This document shows positions 2,339 through 27,482 of a DNA stretch of 27,702 nucleotides, piece after piece. Below the pieces are notes generated by a model that made no database searches, was not told where the DNA came from, and saw nothing but the letters and a program-made list of their open reading frames with translations. Origin of the DNA: a virus; IMG/VR virus record IMGVR_UViG_3300047457_000346, positions 1 to 27,702 of that record; one strand, 5' to 3'. The stretch's first letter is position 1, and each line of letters starts with the position of its first letter. A program made the position numbers and the translations under genes.

Positions 2339-3754
2339 TCAGGCGAAGAGATCGACGACGTAGCTGTTGACCAGGTGCGAGCGGAAGGTCACGCGCTCGG
2401 CCGGATAGGGAGGCGTGAACTCGAAGTCGAAGAACACCTGCCCGTTGGCGATGCTGGTGGGGCTGTTGAGCTCAGGATCCACCCAGACGTCACCGCCGAG
2501 GATGGCGCCCCGGGCCTTGAGGCTGCGGAGGTACTCGCGCACCGACTCCTGCACCTCCTCGAGGTAGGTGGCGGTGATGCAGCGATCGACGGCCCAGAGG
2601 TGACCGCGAAGGATCGACTCGTTGATCATGTCCGCGGTGCGGCGCACCGACAGGAAGGCGTAGAGGGGTTCGGCCGACAGGGTGCGGTTGCCCCAGAGGC
2701 GGAAACCCTGCTCACGGATGATCGTCGCGATGCGCTGCTCGTTGAGCAGGTTCGCCCGGGAGGTGTAATCACCCAGGGCGAAGTCGATAGCGCGGGCGGT
2801 GCCTTCGATGCCGGCGATCTCGTTGTTCGAGGGGGACCACCAGAAGCCGCGCTCGTTGTCGACCTTGTTGATGATGCCGGCCACAGCAGGCGATGCGGGT
2901 GTGGCGACACCGGCGACCACCACCCAAGGATCGACGACGTAGATGCGGTCAGAGCCGAAGTCGTTCTTCAGCTGGATCGCGTCGGCATCGGTGGTGTTGG
3001 GCCCGTCGGCGATCACCACGGCGCGGAGGCGCGAGGCAATGCCCATCAGCTCAGCCAGCACGCGGTTGCGCACGGTGCCGCGGGTGGCGGTGCCGGCCAC
3101 AGCCTGAACGCCGCTGGTGGGCGCTGCGATCGTGACGGTCGGGTTGCTGGTGTAGTTGGTGCCGGGGTTGGTGATCGTGATGCTGACCACCTTGCCAGCG
3201 TTGACGCCGGTGCCGAGCACTGCAGTGGCAGTCGCCTGGACGCCGCCGGCAGCGGGGGCGGAGATCGTCACGGCGGGAGCGGTGGTGTAACCGCTGCCCT
3301 GGGTGGTGACGGGGATGGTCAGGATGCCGTTGCTGTGCCGCTGATGGGTGAAGCCAGGGGCGATCAGCACACGGGGCGCGAAGCCCACAGCGTTCTCAGC
3401 CGCCAGGAAGTCGTAGACGCCTTCATAGGCGCCGGTGGTGGCATTGACGCCGCCGACCACGTTGGTGATGGTCGCTTCATCGGATGCGCCAGCAGCGACG
3501 CGGATCACGACGACCACGGCGCCGGCCTGGGCGTAGATCAGATCGAGTGCAGCCTTGATGGTGCCGGTCGAACCGATGGCGGCATACTCACTCTTGCTCG
3601 TCACCAACACCGGAGTGTTGAGCGGGAACTGAATGGCGTCAGCGTCGGGTGCAGTACCGATCAGGCCGATGACACTGGAGCGCACGGTCTGAATCGGCCG
3701 CGCTCCAGTGTCGATCTGGAGCACCTCCACACCATGGAGGAAGGTTGTCGTCAT
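2339..3754 (-). CDS. Contractile tail sheath protein, P2 FI-like, with an inserted repeat domain
   Basis: The 471-aa product begins MTTTFLHGVEVLQIDTGARP, the usual sheath opening, and contains SVIGLIGTAP, VLIAPGFTHQ, LRAVVIADGP and a C-terminal region (FRLWGNRTLS, RRTADMINES, PAERVTFRSHLVNSYV) typical of the P2 FI sheath family. The sheath surrounds the tube and contracts to drive it through the host envelope. Residues about 140-226 interrupt the sheath fold between APGFTHQ and RNRVLAELMG; they hold two Gly/Thr-rich repeats (GSGYTTAPAVTI and GTNYTSNPTVTI). The core is otherwise of normal length, so this looks like a surface-exposed domain insertion. AGGAGG lies 9 nt before the ATG. Confidence 0.95.
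   Translation of the reverse strand: MTTTFLHGVEVLQIDTGARPIQTVRSSVIGLIGTAPDADAIQFPLNTPVLVTSKSEYAAIGSTGTIKAALDLIYAQAGAVVVVIRVAAGASDEATITNVVGGVNATTGAYEGVYDFLAAENAVGFAPRVLIAPGFTHQRHSNGILTIPVTTQGSGYTTAPAVTISAPAAGGVQATATAVLGTGVNAGKVVSITITNPGTNYTSNPTVTIAAPTSGVQAVAGTATRGTVRNRVLAELMGIASRLRAVVIADGPNTTDADAIQLKNDFGSDRIYVVDPWVVVAGVATPASPAVAGIINKVDNERGFWWSPSNNEIAGIEGTARAIDFALGDYTSRANLLNEQRIATIIREQGFRLWGNRTLSAEPLYAFLSVRRTADMINESILRGHLWAVDRCITATYLEEVQESVREYLRSLKARGAILGGDVWVDPELNSPTSIANGQVFFDFEFTPPYPAERVTFRSHLVNSYVVDLFA
3073..3340 (-). repeat. Inserted GxGYTxxPxVTI repeat domain within the tail sheath
   Basis: Codons for sheath residues of about 139-228 encode two similar units. The first contains GSGYTTAPAVTISAP and ATATAV; the second contains GTNYTSNPTVTIAAP and AVAGTA. 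They are separated by VNAGKVVSITITNP. Repeats of this kind occur as surface modules in many phage structural proteins. The edges are estimated from where P2-type sheath sequence stops and resumes. Confidence 0.75.
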
Positions 3755-3790
3755 GGGCGGAAGCCTCCTGTCGTGTCGATTCTAGGCGGG

Positions 3791-3928
3791 TCAGCGGCCC
3801 TGCCCCCGCAGCTTCTTGCGGCCGCGGCGACGGGGGCGTGAGTGCTGGCCCTGGCCTTGAGATGTGGTCTTGGGTGGACCGGGTTGATGCTCAATGCGGG
3901 CGGCGCCCTGCTTGCTACGAACGGCCAT
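3791..3928 (-). CDS. Small Arg/Lys-rich basic protein of unknown function, 45 aa
   Basis: A short open frame fits exactly between the tail-fibre gene and the sheath gene. It begins MAVRSKQGAARIEHQPGP and ends RPRRRGRKKLRGQGR, so the last 15 residues are almost all basic or Gly. Its ATG overlaps the stop of the tail-fibre gene by one base (TGATG), the same coupling used at seven other junctions here, which is the main reason to call it real. I do not recognise a family. The basic tail suggests binding to nucleic acid or to an acidic partner, but nothing in the sequence proves it. The gap to the sheath start is 36 nt and carries the sheath ribosome site. Confidence 0.65.
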   Translation of the reverse strand: MAVRSKQGAARIEHQPGPPKTTSQGQGQHSRPRRRGRKKLRGQGR

Positions 3929-5376
3929 CAGAGTTCAGCGTCGAGCCAGGAGCGGTAGCCAGTGACGTAGGCAGTGCTGCCGCCCACAGTGGCTTGCAAG
4001 ATGCAGGAGCCACCGTATGGCGTAAGCCTGGCGATGAAGTTCGATGTGTTGTTTGTAGCAGCCTGAGTGGTGTTCGGATCAGAAGTCAATGCTGCAGCCG
4101 ATGGTGTCTTTCTCATCTCGGGCCATGTGATCGACGACTCCATGTACTGGCTTGCGACTGACGCATAGAACAGCATGTTGAATGGCACATACTGGCCATA
4201 CCGCTTGCAGAGGTTCAGCTCAGTGCTCGGCGGCCGACGCTCAAACGGCGTCGCCACAGAGCCTGGTTCAACCTGCACCTGCGCGATTTCGAATGTCCCC
4301 GACTGCTGGCCCAGAGTGTTGGTGCGTGCGTTGAAGCTGCTGCCAGCGTTGAACCAGATCGTCAGTGCCAGGTAGTCGTCGTTGTTGGTGCCGAGCGTCT
4401 TGCCGCTGATCGAGGGCAGCGTTGTGGTCACCGTGATCTTCTGCCAGCTGGTGCTCAGCGTGGTCTTGGTGACACCCAGGGCAGTGACCTGGGCGCTTGG
4501 CGTGCCGCCGGTGCCGAAGAACTGGCTCAGCTCAACAGAGATCGGTTTTGCAGCATCAGCCTTCGCCCAGAAGCTGACCGTGATGGTCTGACCGGCGAAG
4601 GTGCGGACGCCTTCGATGTACTGCGACAGGCTGGTGAAGTTCGACGCACCAGCGACCGACGTGATGATGTTGCGGTAGAAGTATGTGGGCTCATTCGGCA
4701 CACTGGTCTGGCCCAGAGTGAAGGACTCGCGGCTGATCGTGCCGGTGTTGCCGGAGCGGTTGGTGGTCCAGCGATCTGCCAGGTAGCCAGCGCCGGTTTG
4801 CGCCTGGCCCCTCTGCCAGATGTCGAAGTTGCCGTTGATGATCGCGTTGCGGAATCCCGCCAGCGGGCCGCTGTTGATGCTGGGCACCGCCACGTTGCCC
4901 GTGAAGGTGGCGCCGGCCAGTGCCGCATAGGTGCTCGCTGCAGTGGCGGCCTTCAGGTACGCCTGCGCGATCACGAAGGCGCAGGTCGCCAGCTGGGTGG
5001 TGCTCGTGTCGACCGCAGCAGTGGGTGCCGCGGGTGTCCCGGTGAAGGTAGGGCTGGCCAGTGGCGCCTTGGGCGCCAGCAGCGCATTGGCCTCGGCCTT
5101 GGTGTAGCGGTTGGCCAAGGCGTTCGTGATCGTCGCCGCAAAGTTGGGATCGTTCCCCATCGCAGCGGCCAGCTCGTTCAACGTGTCGAGCGCACCAGGT
5201 GACCCGTTGATCAGATCAGCGACCTTCTGATCGACTTCGGCCTTGGTGTAGCGCGCGAACACATCAGCGTCGATCGCCTGCAGCGCAGCCCTCAGCCGCG
5301 CCACATCGTCCATCAGCTGGTTGGCAGCGTTCGGCAGCTGATAGCTGCGATTCGTTGTCCGATCGTCAATGGGCAT
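3928..5376 (-). CDS. Tail fibre protein, probable receptor-binding
   Basis: The 482-aa product has an N-terminal helical region (NAANQLMDDVARLRAALQAI), then typical tail-fibre repeats: RYTKAEVDQKVADLI, GALDTLNELAAAMGNDPNFA, RYTKAEANALL and LASPTFTGTP (about residues 42-115). The C-terminal half starts with GFRNAIINGNFDIWQRG, a motif often found at the start of carbohydrate-binding-like fibre domains, and includes FEIAQVQVEPGSVATPFERR followed by LNLCKRYGQYV. The N-terminus should attach to the baseplate or a partner fibre and the C-terminus should bind the host surface. It starts 4 nt after the preceding gene. Base composition becomes less GC-rich towards the C-terminal coding end (3.95-4.16 kb), in keeping with exchange of the tip. 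Confidence 0.88.
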   Translation of the reverse strand: MPIDDRTTNRSYQLPNAANQLMDDVARLRAALQAIDADVFARYTKAEVDQKVADLINGSPGALDTLNELAAAMGNDPNFAATITNALANRYTKAEANALLAPKAPLASPTFTGTPAAPTAAVDTSTTQLATCAFVIAQAYLKAATAASTYAALAGATFTGNVAVPSINSGPLAGFRNAIINGNFDIWQRGQAQTGAGYLADRWTTNRSGNTGTISRESFTLGQTSVPNEPTYFYRNIITSVAGASNFTSLSQYIEGVRTFAGQTITVSFWAKADAAKPISVELSQFFGTGGTPSAQVTALGVTKTTLSTSWQKITVTTTLPSISGKTLGTNNDDYLALTIWFNAGSSFNARTNTLGQQSGTFEIAQVQVEPGSVATPFERRPPSTELNLCKRYGQYVPFNMLFYASVASQYMESSITWPEMRKTPSAAALTSDPNTTQAATNNTSNFIARLTPYGGSCILQATVGGSTAYVTGYRSWLDAEL

Positions 5377-21478: not shown

Positions 21479-23404
21479 TCAGTCCCAGAACGAGGACCTC
21501 CGGCGCGCTGGCTGCTCCGATTGCTCCGGCTGCTCCTGGCGCACAGGTGCTGCAGGTGCATCGCTCACACCGCCACCTTCTGCTTCCCATCGTTCGTCGC
21601 TCCAACGGTCTGCACCGACCAGGGCCGCGGCCGCCCTGGCGTAGACCCTGCAGTCCAGCGCCTCGTTGCGAGGCCTGGTCTTGACCCACTCGAACTTCGG
21701 GTACCCTCGCCGGTCGATCGTGTTCTCCAGCCGCTCCGCCGTCAGCTGCTGGAAATACTCCTGCCCGTACTGCGGGAAGTGGCACCAGCCATGCGGCAGG
21801 CCCTCGGCCTCATCCTCCGGCGGCCGGCGCCGCAGCCAGCCGTAGAGCTCCGACTTCGCCGTGCTCGTGCCCACCGGCCAGATCTTCACGCCGCCGCGCA
21901 GCGGCTTGCCGTTTCGCAGCACATCCACCCTTGAGGGGGTGCCGATCACGCTCACCTGGCTCTCGACGCCCTTGATCCCGATCACTCGGTTCTGCGGCTG
22001 CGTCCGCACCCACCGCTTCACCTCCTCGGTGCGGTAACCCGTGTCGATCGCTGTCATCCGGATCGGCAGTCGCTGGCCATCGCCGCGGCCGAACTCGCTC
22101 CGCACGAACTTCGACAGTTCGCGCCACACAGCCGGCTCCGCCGTGTCGCCAGCCAGCACCTGGTAGTCGAGGCTCCAACTCTCCAGCCCAGGGCCCCAGC
22201 CCACCACCTCCAGCTCCAGGCGGTCGCCCTGCACGTCCACACCGCAGGTGATGAACACCACCCCGTCCGGCACCGAGCCGATTTCATAGAGCTCTCGCCG
22301 GTTGTAGAGCGCCTCCCAGTCCGGCGCCTCGCCGTCGTTGTTGTACGGCAGCGCCAGCACCGTGTTGATGAACGGCTGCATCAACGCTGGGTTGTCCTCC
22401 GCCTTCACGAACTTCACCACCGCGTCATCCCAGCTGAACCAGCCGAGCGGCGCATAGAGCGCGTTGCAGTGGTAGCCCTGGTGCTGCACTCGCTCCGGGA
22501 ACTCAGCTTCCCACCAGTCGTCGCTCCACACCTCCGGGTCGTACCACCAGGCCTTCGTGTCCTCGCTGATCCCGACGCCGCATTCCTCGCACATCAGCAC
22601 CGGCGGCACGGTCAGCTTCACCGGCAGGCCCGGATCCTTCTCGTCCCATCGCATCCGCTCCCACTCCAGCGTCTGCCGATGGCCGCAATGCGGGCATGGC
22701 AGCTTCAGGTGGTTCTGGCTGCTGTCGCCCCACTTCCGCCAGATCGCGCTCGTGCCCGCACGGCCCGGTGTGCTCGTCCAGCCGTGCTTCTTCCGGCTGC
22801 CGAACGTCCGCGTCCTGGCCTCCACGATCTCCAGCGGGTTGCCCTCCTCATCCACGTCCGACGGCCAGCGGTCGATCTCGTCGCCGCCCAGGTTCTGGAT
22901 CGGCATGGACGCCAGGCCGCTCGCTGCATTGGCACCGCCCAGAATCAGCTGCCCGCCCGGAAAGTCCTTCATCAGCATCGTGTTGCCCGAGTCCCGTGAC
23001 TTCGGGTCCGCCACCTTCTCCCGCAGGCTTGGCGTCGCGTCGATCATCGGCTGGATGCGCGTCCTCGAGTACCGCTTCGCCAGATCGATCGTCGGCTGCA
23101 CGAACAGGCTCGGGCCCGGCGCGATGTCCATGACATAGCCCTGCCAGTTGTTCAGGGCCTCCGATTTCCCCATCTGGCTGCCGAACACCAGCGTCACCTC
23201 CCGCACCCGCGTCGTCGCGCTCAGGTCGTCCATCGCCCGCCGGAGATAGGGGGTCCTCGCCGTTTTCCACGGCCCGTGCTCTGCTGACGCCTTCGGGCTC
23301 AGCATCCGCCGCTGATCCGCCCACTGGCTCACCGTCAGCAGCGGGTCAGGCCTCAGGCCTTCCCAGAACGCCTGTTCAACCGCATCAGCCCTGGCCAGCG
23401 CCAT
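21479..23404 (-). CDS. Terminase large subunit, GpA family
   Basis: Start 23404 is chosen because GGAGG lies 9 nt upstream; the ATG seven codons earlier has none. The 641-aa product has a Walker A-like GSQMGKSE at about residues 75-82, a Walker B-like NLGGDEIDRW (D175, E176), and two Cys pairs CPHC (237-240) and CEEC (272-275) that likely bind zinc. The nuclease part has CGVDVQGDRLELEVVGWG (D390, D394). This is the lambda gpA/GpA family, the packaging ATPase and DNA-cutting nuclease. The C-terminus is rich in Gln, Glu and Pro. It overlaps the small terminase gene by 20 nt. Confidence 0.96.
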   Translation of the reverse strand: MALARADAVEQAFWEGLRPDPLLTVSQWADQRRMLSPKASAEHGPWKTARTPYLRRAMDDLSATTRVREVTLVFGSQMGKSEALNNWQGYVMDIAPGPSLFVQPTIDLAKRYSRTRIQPMIDATPSLREKVADPKSRDSGNTMLMKDFPGGQLILGGANAASGLASMPIQNLGGDEIDRWPSDVDEEGNPLEIVEARTRTFGSRKKHGWTSTPGRAGTSAIWRKWGDSSQNHLKLPCPHCGHRQTLEWERMRWDEKDPGLPVKLTVPPVLMCEECGVGISEDTKAWWYDPEVWSDDWWEAEFPERVQHQGYHCNALYAPLGWFSWDDAVVKFVKAEDNPALMQPFINTVLALPYNNDGEAPDWEALYNRRELYEIGSVPDGVVFITCGVDVQGDRLELEVVGWGPGLESWSLDYQVLAGDTAEPAVWRELSKFVRSEFGRGDGQRLPIRMTAIDTGYRTEEVKRWVRTQPQNRVIGIKGVESQVSVIGTPSRVDVLRNGKPLRGGVKIWPVGTSTAKSELYGWLRRRPPEDEAEGLPHGWCHFPQYGQEYFQQLTAERLENTIDRRGYPKFEWVKTRPRNEALDCRVYARAAAALVGADRWSDERWEAEGGGVSDAPAAPVRQEQPEQSEQPARRRSSFWD

Positions 23405-23939
23405 CTGCCAAAGCCTCCAACGCATTGACCAGGTGCCGCTGGATCACCAGCAGCACCTCAGCACGCTCATCCGGGTTCAGGCCCCCGGCCGCCTTCGCGA
23501 TCTCGCCAATCATCTGCGGACCGATCCGCAGCACCGCATCACGCACCTGCCGGCCAGACTCGAACCGCTTCCGCGTCATCTCCTCGACGCTCACCAGCTT
23601 GCCGCTGCGCTCCTCGTACTCGAGCGCCAGCAGCTTCGCCTGGTAGCCCGCCTTGATCGTCTGCGCCTGGTTCATCGACGGGCCGCGATGCCCGCCGCTG
23701 GAGTCGCTCTCACCGCCGCCGTTCAGCTGCCGCTGCCGTCCCGCCTTGATCTCCGCCGAGTGCCGGCGCTGGGGCATCGTGTTCTTGCCCCACTCGCGAT
23801 CCGCAACCTCAGGGTCGATCAGCCAGCTGCGGCCCTCACGTGTCGCGCCATCCTTGATCCGCCCCTCGGCGATCGCCTTTCTCACCGCCTGAGGCACCAC
23901 CCCCAGCTGCGACGCATACTCGGCGAGCTTGATCAGCAC
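23385..23939 (-). CDS. Terminase small subunit, Nu1-like
   Basis: The 184-aa product starts with GTG (coded as Met) and overlaps the preceding stop by 7 nt. Residues 3-50 form a winged helix-turn-helix of MerR/Nu1 type: IKLAEYASQLGVVPQAVRKA followed by RSWLIDPEVADREW. A linker leads to helices with AKLLALEYEERSGKLVSVEE and VRDAVLRIGPQMIGEIAKAA, the pattern of Nu1-type small terminases. The protein binds the packaging site on phage DNA and recruits the large subunit. The order small then large subunit is standard. Confidence 0.9.
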   Translation of the reverse strand: MLIKLAEYASQLGVVPQAVRKAIAEGRIKDGATREGRSWLIDPEVADREWGKNTMPQRRHSAEIKAGRQRQLNGGGESDSSGGHRGPSMNQAQTIKAGYQAKLLALEYEERSGKLVSVEEMTRKRFESGRQVRDAVLRIGPQMIGEIAKAAGGLNPDERAEVLLVIQRHLVNALEALADGAGQG

Positions 23940-24220
23940 TGATCTTGCAGCAGCTCCACGTAGTAGCCGGCAGCCACCAGTTTGCGCGCCAGCCCCGGCG
24001 GTGAGCTCACCAGCTGGATCGGTGTCTCCTGCGGCGTCATCCCCTCCACCAGCGCCACCACCTGGTCGATCAGCATCATCGTGTGGCCGCGGCCTTCCAG
24101 CATCTCGTCCACCGTCACCTCAGGCCCCTGCGCGCCAAATGCGATCCGCATCGGCCACGCCTGCACGTGACCGTTGGCGTCCCACTGGCAGCCATAGGTG
24201 ATGCTCGCCACTTCAATCAT
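23933..24220 (-). CDS. Phage protein of unknown function, 95 aa
   Basis: The preferred start is the ATG at 24220, with GGGG 4 nt upstream; it overlaps the previous stop by 8 nt. An upstream ATG at 24262 would add 14 residues but has less support. The product begins MIEVASITYGCQWDANGHVQ and includes EMLEGRGHTMMLIDQVVALV followed by TPQETPIQLVSSPPGLARKL. It looks like a small alpha/beta protein. No family is recognised. It is translationally coupled to the small terminase gene, so an accessory role in packaging is possible but unproven. Confidence 0.7.
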   Translation of the reverse strand: MIEVASITYGCQWDANGHVQAWPMRIAFGAQGPEVTVDEMLEGRGHTMMLIDQVVALVEGMTPQETPIQLVSSPPGLARKLVAAGYYVELLQDQC

Positions 24221-24608
24221 CGAACCCCGCGACGAACGGCCGCCTCGTGTTGGCTGCTGCATCCTGCCAAGGCATGAGCACCAGGGTCCCTGGCGTCACC
24301 TTCATCACCGATTGCACGCGCTGCTCCGGCGTCGCATCAGCCCATGCCCAGACCTCAACATCAGGCCATGCCCAGTCGCTGGCCGGTGCACGCCGCACCA
24401 GGCCATGCACTTCGACCATGCCCGGGCCTGCCAGTGGCAGCACGTTCAGGCCCAACCGTTCGCCGAGCGCTGCGGCCAGCAGCTGTCCTGCAGTATCAGC
24501 GCCATGCACACCGGCGCGATCACGCCAGCAGCACTGCGCCGCGATCAGATCCACAGCCGCCTCGAAGCCGGCCCAGGTGAGCTGCAGCAGCGGGGGGCGG
24601 GCCGCCAT
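24213..24608 (-). CDS. Phosphoribosyltransferase-like protein, tentative
   Basis: The 131-aa product begins MAARPPLLQLTWAGFEAAVD, resembling the LSWEEF..ID.LA opening of small phosphoribosyltransferases. It then has AGVHGADTAGQLLAAALGER LGL-type sequence, like the G-x-x-x-GG-x-x-LA-x-x-LS-x-x-LGL segment, and MVEVHGLVRRA where the family has its D-D-x-x-D-T-G phosphoribosyl loop. The acidic residues of that loop are absent, so the protein is either divergent, inactive or not a member. AGGAGG lies 9 nt before the ATG. It sits between small proteins ahead of the terminase genes and may act on nucleotides; that is a guess. Confidence 0.6.
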   Translation of the reverse strand: MAARPPLLQLTWAGFEAAVDLIAAQCCWRDRAGVHGADTAGQLLAAALGERLGLNVLPLAGPGMVEVHGLVRRAPASDWAWPDVEVWAWADATPEQRVQSVMKVTPGTLVLMPWQDAAANTRRPFVAGFDD

Positions 24609-24631: not shown

Positions 24632-24796
24632 TCACTTGCGGGTGACCTTCGGGGCGTAGGTGTAGGGGAGGGATGTCTTCTTGAAGCGCTTGTTGGCCTG
24701 CTGCATCTTGTAGCGCGCCTGGGCCTTGCGGCCAGCCGCCACGCTCGAACCACCAGATCCGCGGCCGCCGCCGCCTCGTCCACCTGCTCCAGCCAT
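24632..24796 (-). CDS. Small Gly-rich basic protein of unknown function, 54 aa
   Basis: Start 24796 is preferred to the ATG at 24817 because GGAG lies 5 nt before it. The first 20 residues are Gly-rich (MAGAGGRGGGGRGSGGSSVA), and the rest is basic (AAGRKAQARYKMQQANKRFK, then YAPKVTRK). It has about 13 Lys/Arg and no Asp or Glu that I can see, so it is strongly positively charged. No family is recognised. It lies 27 nt after the radical SAM gene and 23 nt before the PRT-like gene. A nucleic-acid-binding role is possible from charge only. Confidence 0.65.
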   Translation of the reverse strand: MAGAGGRGGGGRGSGGSSVAAGRKAQARYKMQQANKRFKKTSLPYTYAPKVTRK

Positions 24797-24823: not shown

Positions 24824-26086
24824 TTAGGCCAGCTCTGGTGTCTCAGCGAACGTGTACGGCCAGCCCTGTCTTCGATACACAATCAGTCGATCTCCGTTCT
24901 CATCAAGCAAGGGGATGATCGTGTCGTCTTCAACAATCGAAGCGTGCGCGAATCTGCGGAAGCTGGTTGGCCCCAGGCTCTTGCAGAACAGATCATCGTT
25001 CCACATGATGTCCCAGAAGCTGCTCACGCTCTGCTTCGGCAGACGGCCATCAGGCAGTGGCTTCACGATCGCCCGGTAGTGCTTCGCCCGCTTGTGCCGT
25101 AGCGGCTCCGACCAGTCCAACTCCGGCAACGGCGCCAGCGCTTCCATCGCCATCTCGCGCGTCACCAGCACGTAGCCGTCATCCGCCACATCCGCATCAT
25201 CCATCAGCGGGTCGATCAGGTTTACCAGCTGATGCCAGTACGGCATCGGCCTCTCGTAGACCTCGTGCCACGGATCGAAGAACCGCGTTGGCTCCTCGTA
25301 CTCGGTCGAGAACACCTCCAGCCCGATGCCTTTGGCGTAGGCCATGGCCGCTTCAGCGTGCGCCTTGTCCGCCTTGCTGCCCTTCTCGCCGCAGGTGCGG
25401 ATGAACTGCTCACCCAGCCGGCTGCGCGCCTTGTCGTCCAGGTTGCCCTTGAAGCTCTTGCTGAAGTACGGCACCTGGATCCACACGCCCCACACGCCAG
25501 CCGCCTTCAGCTGATCGAGCAGCGGCTCGAACTTCGGCAGCCAGTCCACCGTCAGCGGGTTCACGCCCACCGTCACGACATGCCCGGCCTCAATCAGCTG
25601 CTCCACCAACTCCAGCCTGCTGCCAATCGACGGCGCGTGCGGTTCCACCCGGCGACGCACCTCGTCATCCAGCATTGGAACGCTCACGTACCAGACGGCC
25701 CGCGGCGTCTCGCGCACCACACGTTCCAGGATCGGACGGTGCGCCTTGTGCGCTCCCCTCGTCTGCCATGCCAGCGGGATGCTCAGCTCCACGCACATCT
25801 CCCAGATCGGCTCGAACTGCACCGCATTGGTGCCGGCGAACGGGTCCACATGGTTGCTCACCAGCATCGGCACCCGCGCCTGCAGCAGTCGCGCCTCACG
25901 GCTCCGCCGCTTGTGATGCTCAGCCAGCAGGCCCACGATCCCGCGAATGTCCGCGCGACGGTCGGGCTTGAACCAGTTTGCGAAGCAGTAGGTGCAGGCA
26001 TGCCCGCACCAGTTCATGCTCAGCTCCAGGCCAGCAGGACTGACCAGGAACTCCCCTGCGTAGGGGCGGATGCCGTCGCCGCTCAT
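24824..26086 (-). CDS. Radical SAM protein, spore photoproduct lyase-like/Rv2578c-like
   Basis: The 420-aa product has CGHACTYC at residues 27-34, a CX3CX2C motif (C27, C31, C34) that binds the [4Fe-4S] cluster and S-adenosylmethionine. Downstream are segments that follow the SplB-like plan: PMLVSNHVDPFAGTN, LAWQTRGAHKAHRPILERVV, VWYVSVPMLDDEVRRRVEPH, then RLELVEQLIEAGHVVTVGVN, which is the S-x-x-x-x-D-x-x-x-R-x-x-E-P-x-A pattern. The C-terminal part is unlike SplB. Members cut SAM to a radical and act on diverse targets; SplB itself repairs a thymine dimer. The substrate here is unknown. It overlaps the ParB-like gene before it by 4 nt, so they are probably co-translated. Confidence 0.88.
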   Translation of the reverse strand: MSGDGIRPYAGEFLVSPAGLELSMNWCGHACTYCFANWFKPDRRADIRGIVGLLAEHHKRRSREARLLQARVPMLVSNHVDPFAGTNAVQFEPIWEMCVELSIPLAWQTRGAHKAHRPILERVVRETPRAVWYVSVPMLDDEVRRRVEPHAPSIGSRLELVEQLIEAGHVVTVGVNPLTVDWLPKFEPLLDQLKAAGVWGVWIQVPYFSKSFKGNLDDKARSRLGEQFIRTCGEKGSKADKAHAEAAMAYAKGIGLEVFSTEYEEPTRFFDPWHEVYERPMPYWHQLVNLIDPLMDDADVADDGYVLVTREMAMEALAPLPELDWSEPLRHKRAKHYRAIVKPLPDGRLPKQSVSSFWDIMWNDDLFCKSLGPTSFRRFAHASIVEDDTIIPLLDENGDRLIVYRRQGWPYTFAETPELA

Positions 26087-26679
26087 GCGTCAGTCTCCTG
26101 CAGCAGGTCTTCAACCAGCTTCCAGAATGCCGCCTTGTCGGTGCTGTAGCCCAGCTCCGCCTTCGCGCGGCGCCACGTCGTCAACTCCTGCGGACTCAGC
26201 ACGATCGCCAGTGCAACGCCGCGGTTGATCCCCTCGTCTTCCTCCTCCGGCTCATCCTCACCCTCGAACTCTCCGCCGAGCAGCTTCGTCAGCTCGTCAC
26301 CGTCGAACCCCAACAAGTCGAGGTCGAAGTCGCTGGCCTGCAGCATGTCGAGCTCCTGCGCCAGCAGCTCCTCATCCCAGCCCGCCTGCAGCGCCAGCTG
26401 GTTGTCGGCGATCACGTAGGCGCGCCGTTGCTCAGGCGTCAGGTGCCCCAGCACGATCACCGGCACCTCCGTCAGCCCCAGCTGCTGCGCTGCTGCCAGG
26501 CGGCCATGGCCGGCCACCAGCACATCGTCCGCATCCACCAGCAGCGGACTGGTGAACCCGAACTCAGTCATGCTCGCCGCAATGCGGGCTACCTGGCTGG
26601 CGCTATGCGTGCGGCTGTTCCGCTCGTACTCCCTCACCCGCTCGATCGGCCATTGCTCGATCGTCTCAGGGATCTGCAT
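26083..26679 (-). CDS. ParB/Srx-like domain protein, second of a tandem pair
   Basis: Start 26679 is chosen because GGAAGG lies 4 nt upstream and the paralogue's homology begins right there; an ATG 21 bases earlier is possible. The 198-aa product has the ParB-like core: EQWPIERVREYERNSRTHSA, FGFTSPLLVDADDVLVAGHG followed by RLAAAQQLG (the ParB box at about 57-66), HLTPEQRRAYVIADNQLALQ followed by AGWD. An acidic stretch (EGEDEPEEEDEG, about 139-150) links to a C-terminal helical part (LSPQELTTWRRAKAELGYST). ParB family members are CTPases or nucleases that act on DNA. It lies 92 nt after its paralogue and overlaps the radical SAM gene by 4 nt. Confidence 0.87.
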   Translation of the reverse strand: MQIPETIEQWPIERVREYERNSRTHSASQVARIAASMTEFGFTSPLLVDADDVLVAGHGRLAAAQQLGLTEVPVIVLGHLTPEQRRAYVIADNQLALQAGWDEELLAQELDMLQASDFDLDLLGFDGDELTKLLGGEFEGEDEPEEEDEGINRGVALAIVLSPQELTTWRRAKAELGYSTDKAAFWKLVEDLLQETDA

Positions 26680-26771
26680 CAACCCTTCCCGGGAACCCAT
26701 GCCTGGTTCAATACTGGCGCAACGCGGCTTCCATGCCGAACCGCTTGCGGATCTGCCGATCCGGCATGCCG

Positions 26772-27482
26772 TCATCCATCCATCCACTCCCGGCACACCT
26801 GGACCAACGCCTCCGGCGTTCCCTCCAGGCCGTGCTTCTCCTTCGCCAGCCGCACCGCAGCCAGCACCACCTCTCGGTCGTCCCACAGCAGGTTGCACGA
26901 GAACACGTGCCGCTCCTCCACCTCGCCGCTCTCGGCGGTGGCGTCCTCCGGCCCGTCGTCCTCACCAGCGCCCGGCATCATGCCCAGCCCCGGCTGCTGC
27001 TCCGGCTCCGCCCGCTCATACCCCTGCGACAGCTGCTCGAACTGCCCCAGCTCCAGGCCGTCCTCCAGCCGCCGCAGCTCGTCGTCGCTGAAGCCCATGC
27101 TCGACAGATCGAAGTCGGCCGCCATCAGCCCGCGCAGCTCCGCATCCAGCTTGCTCAGGTCCCACCCGGCGTTCTCCGCCAGCTTGTTGTCCGCGATCAC
27201 ATAGGCCCGCCGCTGCTCCGGGCTCAGGTGGTCGAGCACCACCACCGGCACCTCAGCCATGCCGAGCGCCCGGGCCGCCGCCAGCCGCCCATGGCCAGCC
27301 AGGATCCCTGACTCGCCATCCACCAGCAGCGGCGACGTGAACCCGAACTGCTCGATGCTGGCCTGGATCTGGGCCAGCTGCTCAGCGCTGTGCACCCTGG
27401 CGTTGTTCTCGAACGGCACCAGCCGCTCCACCGGCCACAGCTCGATGCGCTGCGCCATCTGCGGCGAAAACCCTGCCCCCAT
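26772..27482 (-). CDS. ParB/Srx-like domain protein, first of a tandem pair
   Basis: The 236-aa product starts after GGGAGGGCAG, a good ribosome site. Residues 10-120 carry the ParB/Srx core: IELWPVERLVPFENNARVHS, FGFTSPLLVDGESGILAGHG followed by RLAAARALG (the ParB box, about 63-73), HLSPEQRRAYVIADNKLAEN followed by AGWD. This closely parallels the second gene. The C-terminus has a Glu/Asp-rich stretch and ends in helices (REVVLAAVRLAKEKHGLEGT, ALVQVCREWMDG). There is no fused methyltransferase, unlike some phage ParB-like proteins. As first gene of the operon it may regulate it, act in genome modification or in packaging; these are inferences. Confidence 0.87.
   Translation of the reverse strand: MGAGFSPQMAQRIELWPVERLVPFENNARVHSAEQLAQIQASIEQFGFTSPLLVDGESGILAGHGRLAAARALGMAEVPVVVLDHLSPEQRRAYVIADNKLAENAGWDLSKLDAELRGLMAADFDLSSMGFSDDELRRLEDGLELGQFEQLSQGYERAEPEQQPGLGMMPGAGEDDGPEDATAESGEVEERHVFSCNLLWDDREVVLAAVRLAKEKHGLEGTPEALVQVCREWMDG

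Follow-up and report, generated by a model that had tools for sequence, protein, structure and literature searches.

The window, that is, the whole stretch of DNA that was analysed, is a 27.7-kb phage fragment from IMG/VR. In the order of transcription, its minus strand carries two ParB genes (ParB1 and ParB2), a radical SAM (rSAM) gene, a glycine-rich small gene, two further small genes, and the genes of the small and large terminase subunits:

26772..27482 (minus): ParB1, ParB-fold protein of 236 aa (PHROG profiles)
26682..26779 (minus): probable remnant of a lost IbrB-like ParB gene, 17 + 9 residues recognisable (tblastn)
26083..26679 (minus): ParB2, 198 aa, ParB/Srx nucleotide-binding fold and C-terminal tail (PHROG, AF2, Foldseek)
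26086..26214 (minus): C-terminal tail of ParB2, matched by a profile specific to rSAM-linked ParBs; two helices in the AF2 model
24824..26086 (minus): rSAM enzyme, 420 aa, without an auxiliary-cluster motif
25985..26008 (minus): CX3CX2C [4Fe-4S]/SAM motif CGHACTYC, rSAM residues 27-34, invariant cysteines
24632..24796 (minus): glycine-rich basic small protein, 54 aa, MAGAGGRGGGGRGSGGSSVAAGRK..., putative rSAM substrate or co-substrate
23933..24608 (minus): two small genes, 131 aa and 109 aa, occurring in close relatives only
23385..23939 (minus): terminase small subunit (phrog_57, 1.8e-22), downstream neighbour
21479..23425 (minus): terminase large subunit, GpA type (PF20454, PF05876), downstream neighbour

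The ParB2 and rSAM genes are joined by a 4-nt ATGA overlap (ParB2 starts with ATG, and a TTG is also present one codon upstream), and the glycine-rich gene starts 27 nt past the rSAM stop, with GGAG directly before its ATG as read from the sequence. The Pfam matches are weak and lie slightly below the gathering scores (ParB_N, 2.6e-5 and 3.6e-5; Radical_SAM, 1e-5); PHROG ParB profiles match in the window with values as low as 1e-55. Pfam and PHROG profile searches gave no family matches for the two small genes. A previous sequence-only reading had described the two ParB genes and the rSAM gene as a group ahead of the terminase genes with a 4-nt overlap between ParB2 and rSAM; the genes are genuine, lie on the minus strand and are arranged as claimed. 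The composition given for the cassette was incomplete, as a third component, the glycine-rich gene at 24632-24796, had been omitted.

The AF2 model of ParB2 (pLDDT 90.0) comprises a confident N-terminal domain, a weak linker and a confident short C-terminal tail. Foldseek placed the model nearest to ParB, Noc and KorB (7bm8, 6sdk, 7ng0, 8qa8), with sulfiredoxin and serine kinase lower, showing that the ParB nucleotide-binding fold is present. The final ~45 residues are ribbon-helix-helix-like by inspection, the strand being guessed from the sequence and the two helices being seen in the model. When a profile was built from this tail in 15 rSAM-linked ParBs close to the window, it matched (E<0.01) 12 of 17 distant rSAM-linked ParBs and 0 of the 87 ParBs that have other partners; as judged with this profile, the tail is specific to rSAM-linked ParBs.

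Relatives of the rSAM gene were collected by scans of IMG/VR, which yielded 20 and then 75 sequences, and later with divergent seeds, which yielded 13 and 57 (overlapping sets). By table count, 52 of the 71 IMG/VR loci with enough upstream DNA have a ParB gene in the same orientation at most 400 nt upstream of the rSAM start, mostly overlapping rSAM by a few bases. An upstream alternative rSAM start overlaps ParB in L062 and L087; ParB lies farther upstream in L067, L068 and L070 (the last with an N6/N4 methyltransferase gene between) and downstream of rSAM in L077 and L083. The rSAM enzyme is 71-83% identical to that of the window in phages whose TerL is only 28-37% identical, and pairwise identities gave a Spearman correlation of 0.79 for rSAM-ParB versus 0.64 for rSAM-TerL, values that are descriptive since the sequences are non-independent. 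An accident of the terminase locus was considered as the source of the ParB link and is unlikely, given the specificity of the tail and the conservation of rSAM over divergent TerL.

The coupled trio of two ParBs and rSAM that had been proposed, together with a neighbourhood search for it, holds in part: the ParB2-rSAM pair before the terminase genes recurs widely (the 52 of 71 loci above), whereas the two-ParB trio was found in close relatives only (L022-L025) and ParB1 is not part of the unit. On these sequence comparisons, the rSAM enzyme has ParB2 as its cognate partner. An independent ParB-rSAM neighbourhood was observed in Dulem virus 36 (L121:2968-4908), in which ParB is followed by a small protein with a weak methyltransferase-like match and then by a PA0069-type radical SAM protein; no obvious glycine tag is seen there.

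Relatives place ParB1 with a PAPS reductase and an IbrB-like ParB, a pair resembling IbrA/IbrB. In L024 and L025, ParB1 is followed by a PAPS reductase with DUF3440, then by the IbrB-like ParB, and then by ParB2-rSAM; in L145, the same PAPS reductase and IbrB-like ParB genes lie ahead of its ParB-DUF4417 gene. When the L145 IbrB-like protein was used as query, tblastn detected remnants of 17 and 9 residues at positions 26779-26682 of the window. ParB1 does not carry the rSAM-specific tail. Rather than a member of the unit, as first read, ParB1 is probably an orphan left from a different module, of the PAPS-reductase/IbrB-like kind, which lacks its enzyme gene in the window. Because relatives carry the extra genes and the window keeps remnants, the ParB-ParB-rSAM order most likely arose by deletion. 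Tandem ParB-containing genes that parallel those of the window are also found in Acidithiobacillus phage AcaML1 (L115:3971-6786), where the first is a ParB-methyltransferase fusion and the pair adjoins a terminase-small-subunit-like ORF.

The rSAM enzyme was modelled by AF2 with a pLDDT of 95.2. An alignment of 43 family sequences contains C27, C31 and C34 as the only invariant cysteines; with no further one among these 43 sequences, SPASM/Twitch auxiliary-cluster cysteines are absent from the family, as they are from some RiPP rSAM enzymes. The closest curated families are Rv2578c (NF038135) and PA0069 (NF033668), both matched by 41 of the 43 members, far under the cut-offs. PHROG 13321 (unknown function) matches 42 of the 43 members, and phrog_9252 ('DNA repair photolyase') matches 13. 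A PDB sequence search with the rSAM profile returned no convincing match, and Foldseek with the model returned generic similarity to SkfB, SuiB, HydE, viperin, spore photoproduct lyase (SPL) and PFL-activating enzyme. By reading, the rSAM gene of L020 (1708-5738), and also that of L042, is interrupted in frame by an intein-like insertion, located at the third cysteine of the cluster motif (…ACTYC/IEENS…SRN/CFAN…, slashes marking the junctions) and is split further by a transposase-like gene.

The enzyme had been likened to SPL, with thymine in DNA as its target, and this link did not survive. Nothing in the window matches the SPL-type model TIGR03886, which is touched weakly by 4 of the 43 family members (best, 1.2e-4). 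SPL requires a catalytic cysteine; an extra conserved cysteine, beyond those of CX3CX2C, is absent among the 43 aligned rSAM sequences. The CX3CX2C motif that SPL membership calls for is present (residues 27-34), the weak TIGR03886 contacts and the 13 phrog_9252 matches are consistent with a distant SplB-type superfamily, and SPL is among the fold matches (TM about 0.47-0.52 by target), but other rSAM folds match equally. SPL-like repair of phage DNA is, in our estimate, very improbable.

The ParB of the window belongs to the phrog_620/15396/498 group and adjoins its enzyme gene. Many of the isolate-phage matches of ParB2 are N-terminal domains of DNA methyltransferase fusions. In Psychrobacter phage Y8A, an unfused ParB is followed by a Mom gene, and in Moraxella phage Mcat8 by genes for a C5 methylase and then a class I methyltransferase. 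The gene after ParB encodes a TAGT glycosyltransferase in three isolate phages; in Pelagibacter phage HTVC112P it encodes Tet_JBP, and in NatCom_43819, whose ParB gene is longer, a C5 methylase. In IMG/VR, the 22 genes after unfused ParBs, from loci retrieved with ParB2 as query and in part near-identical, encode Mom (7), N6/N4 methyltransferases (3), TAGT (3), FkbM methyltransferases (3), C5 methyltransferases (2), Tet_JBP (1) and a terminase-like protein (1), the remainder being without assignment. The ParB fusions in IMG/VR loci are with N6/N4 methyltransferases in 39 of 43 cases and with DUF4417 in 2. By eye, a ParB partner outside the Pfam tally (L149:3813-4709) resembles transglycosylase-type TIM-barrel proteins, and two ParB-adjacent genes without assignment (L158:754-1515 and L194:3158-3751) are candidate modification enzymes.

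ParBc has been described adjacent to CmoX and in methyltransferase fusions, with unknown role (PMC12783734, PMC12704722); the word 'radical' is absent from the text of the ParB-fold survey PMC12704722. In gene order, the rSAM occupies the ParB-partner slot that is held elsewhere by DNA-modifying enzymes, which is an association and not proof. Because this slot otherwise holds such enzymes, a role in phage-DNA modification may be proposed. Of the modification suggested in the sequence-only reading, this much is retained through guilt by association (homologous ParBs are fused to or precede Mom, N6/N4 and C5 methyltransferases, TAGT and TET/JBP), and the thymine chemistry is dropped.

In most relatives, the rSAM gene is followed by a short ORF whose start is rich in glycine. 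With tag criteria and controls that were picked after the pattern had been noticed, two tests gave the following counts: (i) when glycines were scored per 15-residue window in the first 40 residues, at least 5 were found in 36 of 57 genes after rSAM, versus 2 of 71 that follow another ParB partner (p 1e-14; both positives are ParB-DUF4417 fusions) and 1 of 37 downstream of TerL or portal (p 4e-10); (ii) a strict test on dereplicated loci, which asked for ATG, an SD-like sequence and GG within the first 20 residues, was positive in 21 of 51 genes after rSAM versus 0 of 47 controls, from which the two ParB-DUF4417 loci were excluded (p 9e-8), and at 21 of 369 other gene ends of the same contigs, several of these being themselves second tagged genes. 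The strict test found no tag in 30 of the 51 rSAM loci, some of which fail only the SD or the GG criterion; L065-L070 are apparently without any tag.

Tags vary widely and form no single alignable family. The form in the window's clade is MAGxGGRxGG…; others are MAYYYGNANPGGGG… and MASxGGx[WF]… (34-42 aa), and micro-ORFs of 10-24 aa encode MKTLWGGGWY, MKAIREWGGNWY, MRNVREWGGDWF, MENHQVEWGGDWEG and, in two loci, YSGGSSFAEDVGG. These last two (L063 versus L071) differ by 10 synonymous and 0 nonsynonymous codons; the corresponding counts are 19 versus 6 for L004/L009 and 8 versus 5 for L297/L298. The micro-ORF tags are under purifying selection. In two phages of 76-92 kb, the N-terminal tags searched for were found only in genes flanking rSAM. 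GC-rich noise as the source of the glycine-rich ORFs was rejected on the strength of the controls, the codon comparison and phages of higher AT content (L045, L077). A conserved short peptide gene adjoins rSAM, as in RiPP systems. From its location and the selection on it, the tag is best taken as a substrate or co-substrate of rSAM.

Tags also front larger proteins. Three proteins of L265 (1337-1933, 3204-3854 and 3867-4454) start with MASKGGSWKSG[KT]F, and one of these tagged proteins has an ADP-ribosyltransferase domain (PF03496, 1.4e-14). In L053, a tagged NUDIX protein (1288-2811) is followed by a tagged 751-aa protein (2816-5068) with an ADP-ribosyltransferase domain (PF03496, 3e-9). Six paralogous tagged starts with differing C-termini occur in L020/L042, and two tagged proteins in the one phage L049. 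Such tagged larger proteins would be consistent with the marking of virion proteins or effectors. MGRxxGGGG… proteins are found after DUF4417 in L210 and L216-L219; L209 (= L145) and L210 are close relatives of the window phage in which ParB-DUF4417 replaces ParB2-rSAM. DUF4417 was considered as a degenerate rSAM, and profile comparison gave a probability of 0.3%, that is, no relation. The two enzymes, rSAM and DUF4417, have ParB and a glycine tag in common yet are apparently unrelated.

A tblastn search of 50,697 isolate-phage records with four rSAM members found nothing except one 23% match; at this sensitivity, the family is nearly absent from isolate phages. In GTDB, one contig carries the family, from a Synechococcaceae MAG, and among 386 genomes sampled from its phylum this one alone gave a full-length match. 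Because the sole GTDB contig is from a Synechococcaceae MAG, a cyanobacterial host is likely for the window phage. No description of the ParB-rSAM pair was found in the literature searched, and the cassette of ParB, rSAM and glycine tag is real, widespread and apparently undescribed.

Taken together, we favour, with a probability of about 0.4, a reading in which ParB2 recruits the rSAM enzyme to phage DNA, with the glycine tag as substrate or co-substrate of the enzyme. ParB2 and rSAM would form one phage modification unit, in the slot of Mom, DNA methyltransferases, TAGT and TET/JBP. ParB2, as a nucleotide-binding adaptor with an rSAM-specific tail, would position the complex on the phage genome just ahead of packaging; rSAM would generate a radical from SAM with its one [4Fe-4S] cluster; and its direct substrate or co-substrate would be the neighbouring glycine-rich tag protein, most plausibly at glycine. 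The product on phage DNA might be a modified peptide or a peptide-assisted DNA change. That DNA is involved is what we best infer from ParB, the ParB association being its only basis.

A pure modification of DNA bases after replication, Mom-like and evading restriction, with the glycine-rich protein as an accessory DNA-binding subunit, seems doubtful. It would agree with the DNA-modifying enzymes in the partner slot, with the ties of ParBc to CmoX and methyltransferase fusions (PMC12783734, PMC12704722) and with the place of the cassette before the terminase genes; however, it leaves unexplained the occurrence of the tag after rSAM and DUF4417 and its absence after Mom, TAGT and methyltransferases, tags as short as 10-24 aa, and tags that front ADP-ribosyltransferase and NUDIX proteins. 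Because a glycine-rich partner is present, a peptide or protein target is a serious rival: in a RiPP-like maturase, the target of rSAM would be the glycine or GGx[WF] tag carried by effectors or small proteins that may be destined for the virion, and ParB would be a nucleotide-dependent adaptor, DNA not being a substrate. The adjacency and selection of the tag, the number of tagged proteins per phage (three in L265, two in L049, two in L053, six in L020/L042) and the presence of SkfB, SuiB and PFL-activating enzyme among the top PDB fold matches argue for this maturase; we nevertheless hold it to be unlikely, as the ParB partner slot indicates DNA, the SPASM/auxiliary-cluster cysteines are lacking, DUF4417, which has no detectable relation to rSAM, precedes a similar tag, and the fold matches are generic. 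It is improbable that rSAM covalently links the glycine tag to phage DNA under positioning by ParB, and that effectors or small proteins with a tag (ADP-ribosyltransferase, NUDIX/kinase-like) are thereby carried along with the genome into the capsid and on to the next host; if true, this would be a radical-based DNA-protein conjugation system.

With the favoured reading, in which ParB2 directs the enzyme to DNA and the tag takes part in the reaction, the cassette points to a radical SAM enzyme that modifies on or at phage DNA with a conserved peptide partner. Should DNA be the substrate, the result would be a base modification new to phages; should it be the tag, the packaging locus would house a phage-borne precursor-peptide system; should it be both, the system would be something new. 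We offer the rule that a gene coupled to this ParB encodes a modification enzyme, by which other partners, e.g., DUF4417, become testable.

The nearest known systems are related to the cassette in different parts. The nucleotide-binding fold of ParB2 is that of ParABS partition ParB; ParB2 has 198 aa and a short rSAM-specific tail. Relatives of the window carry the PAPS reductase (DUF3440) and IbrB-like ParB of an IbrA/IbrB-type module after ParB1; this module is absent from the window and distinct from the ParB2-rSAM pair. The Rv2578c, PA0069 and SplB-type rSAM families have CX3CX2C and the SplB-type N-terminal half in common with the window enzyme, whose family of ~400 aa differs by its own C-terminal half and by its ParB and tag partners. 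As in rSAM precursor-peptide systems (SkfB, SuiB; the PqqA/PqqE logic), a short conserved peptide gene lies beside rSAM and the fold likeness is generic; in contrast to them, the window enzyme is without SPASM/Twitch cysteines, has a ParB partner and lies at a packaging locus, and the tag fronts large proteins too. Finally, the ParB-DNA methyltransferase, ParB-CmoX and ParB-Mom neighbourhoods (phrog_498, phrog_620; PMC12783734, PMC12704722) contain the same ParB subfamily as the window, with gene overlap or fusion between ParB and the enzyme and often adjoining terminase genes, as here; what sets the window apart is that the enzyme is a radical SAM protein, that ParB has an rSAM-specific tail and that a glycine-rich tag protein follows.
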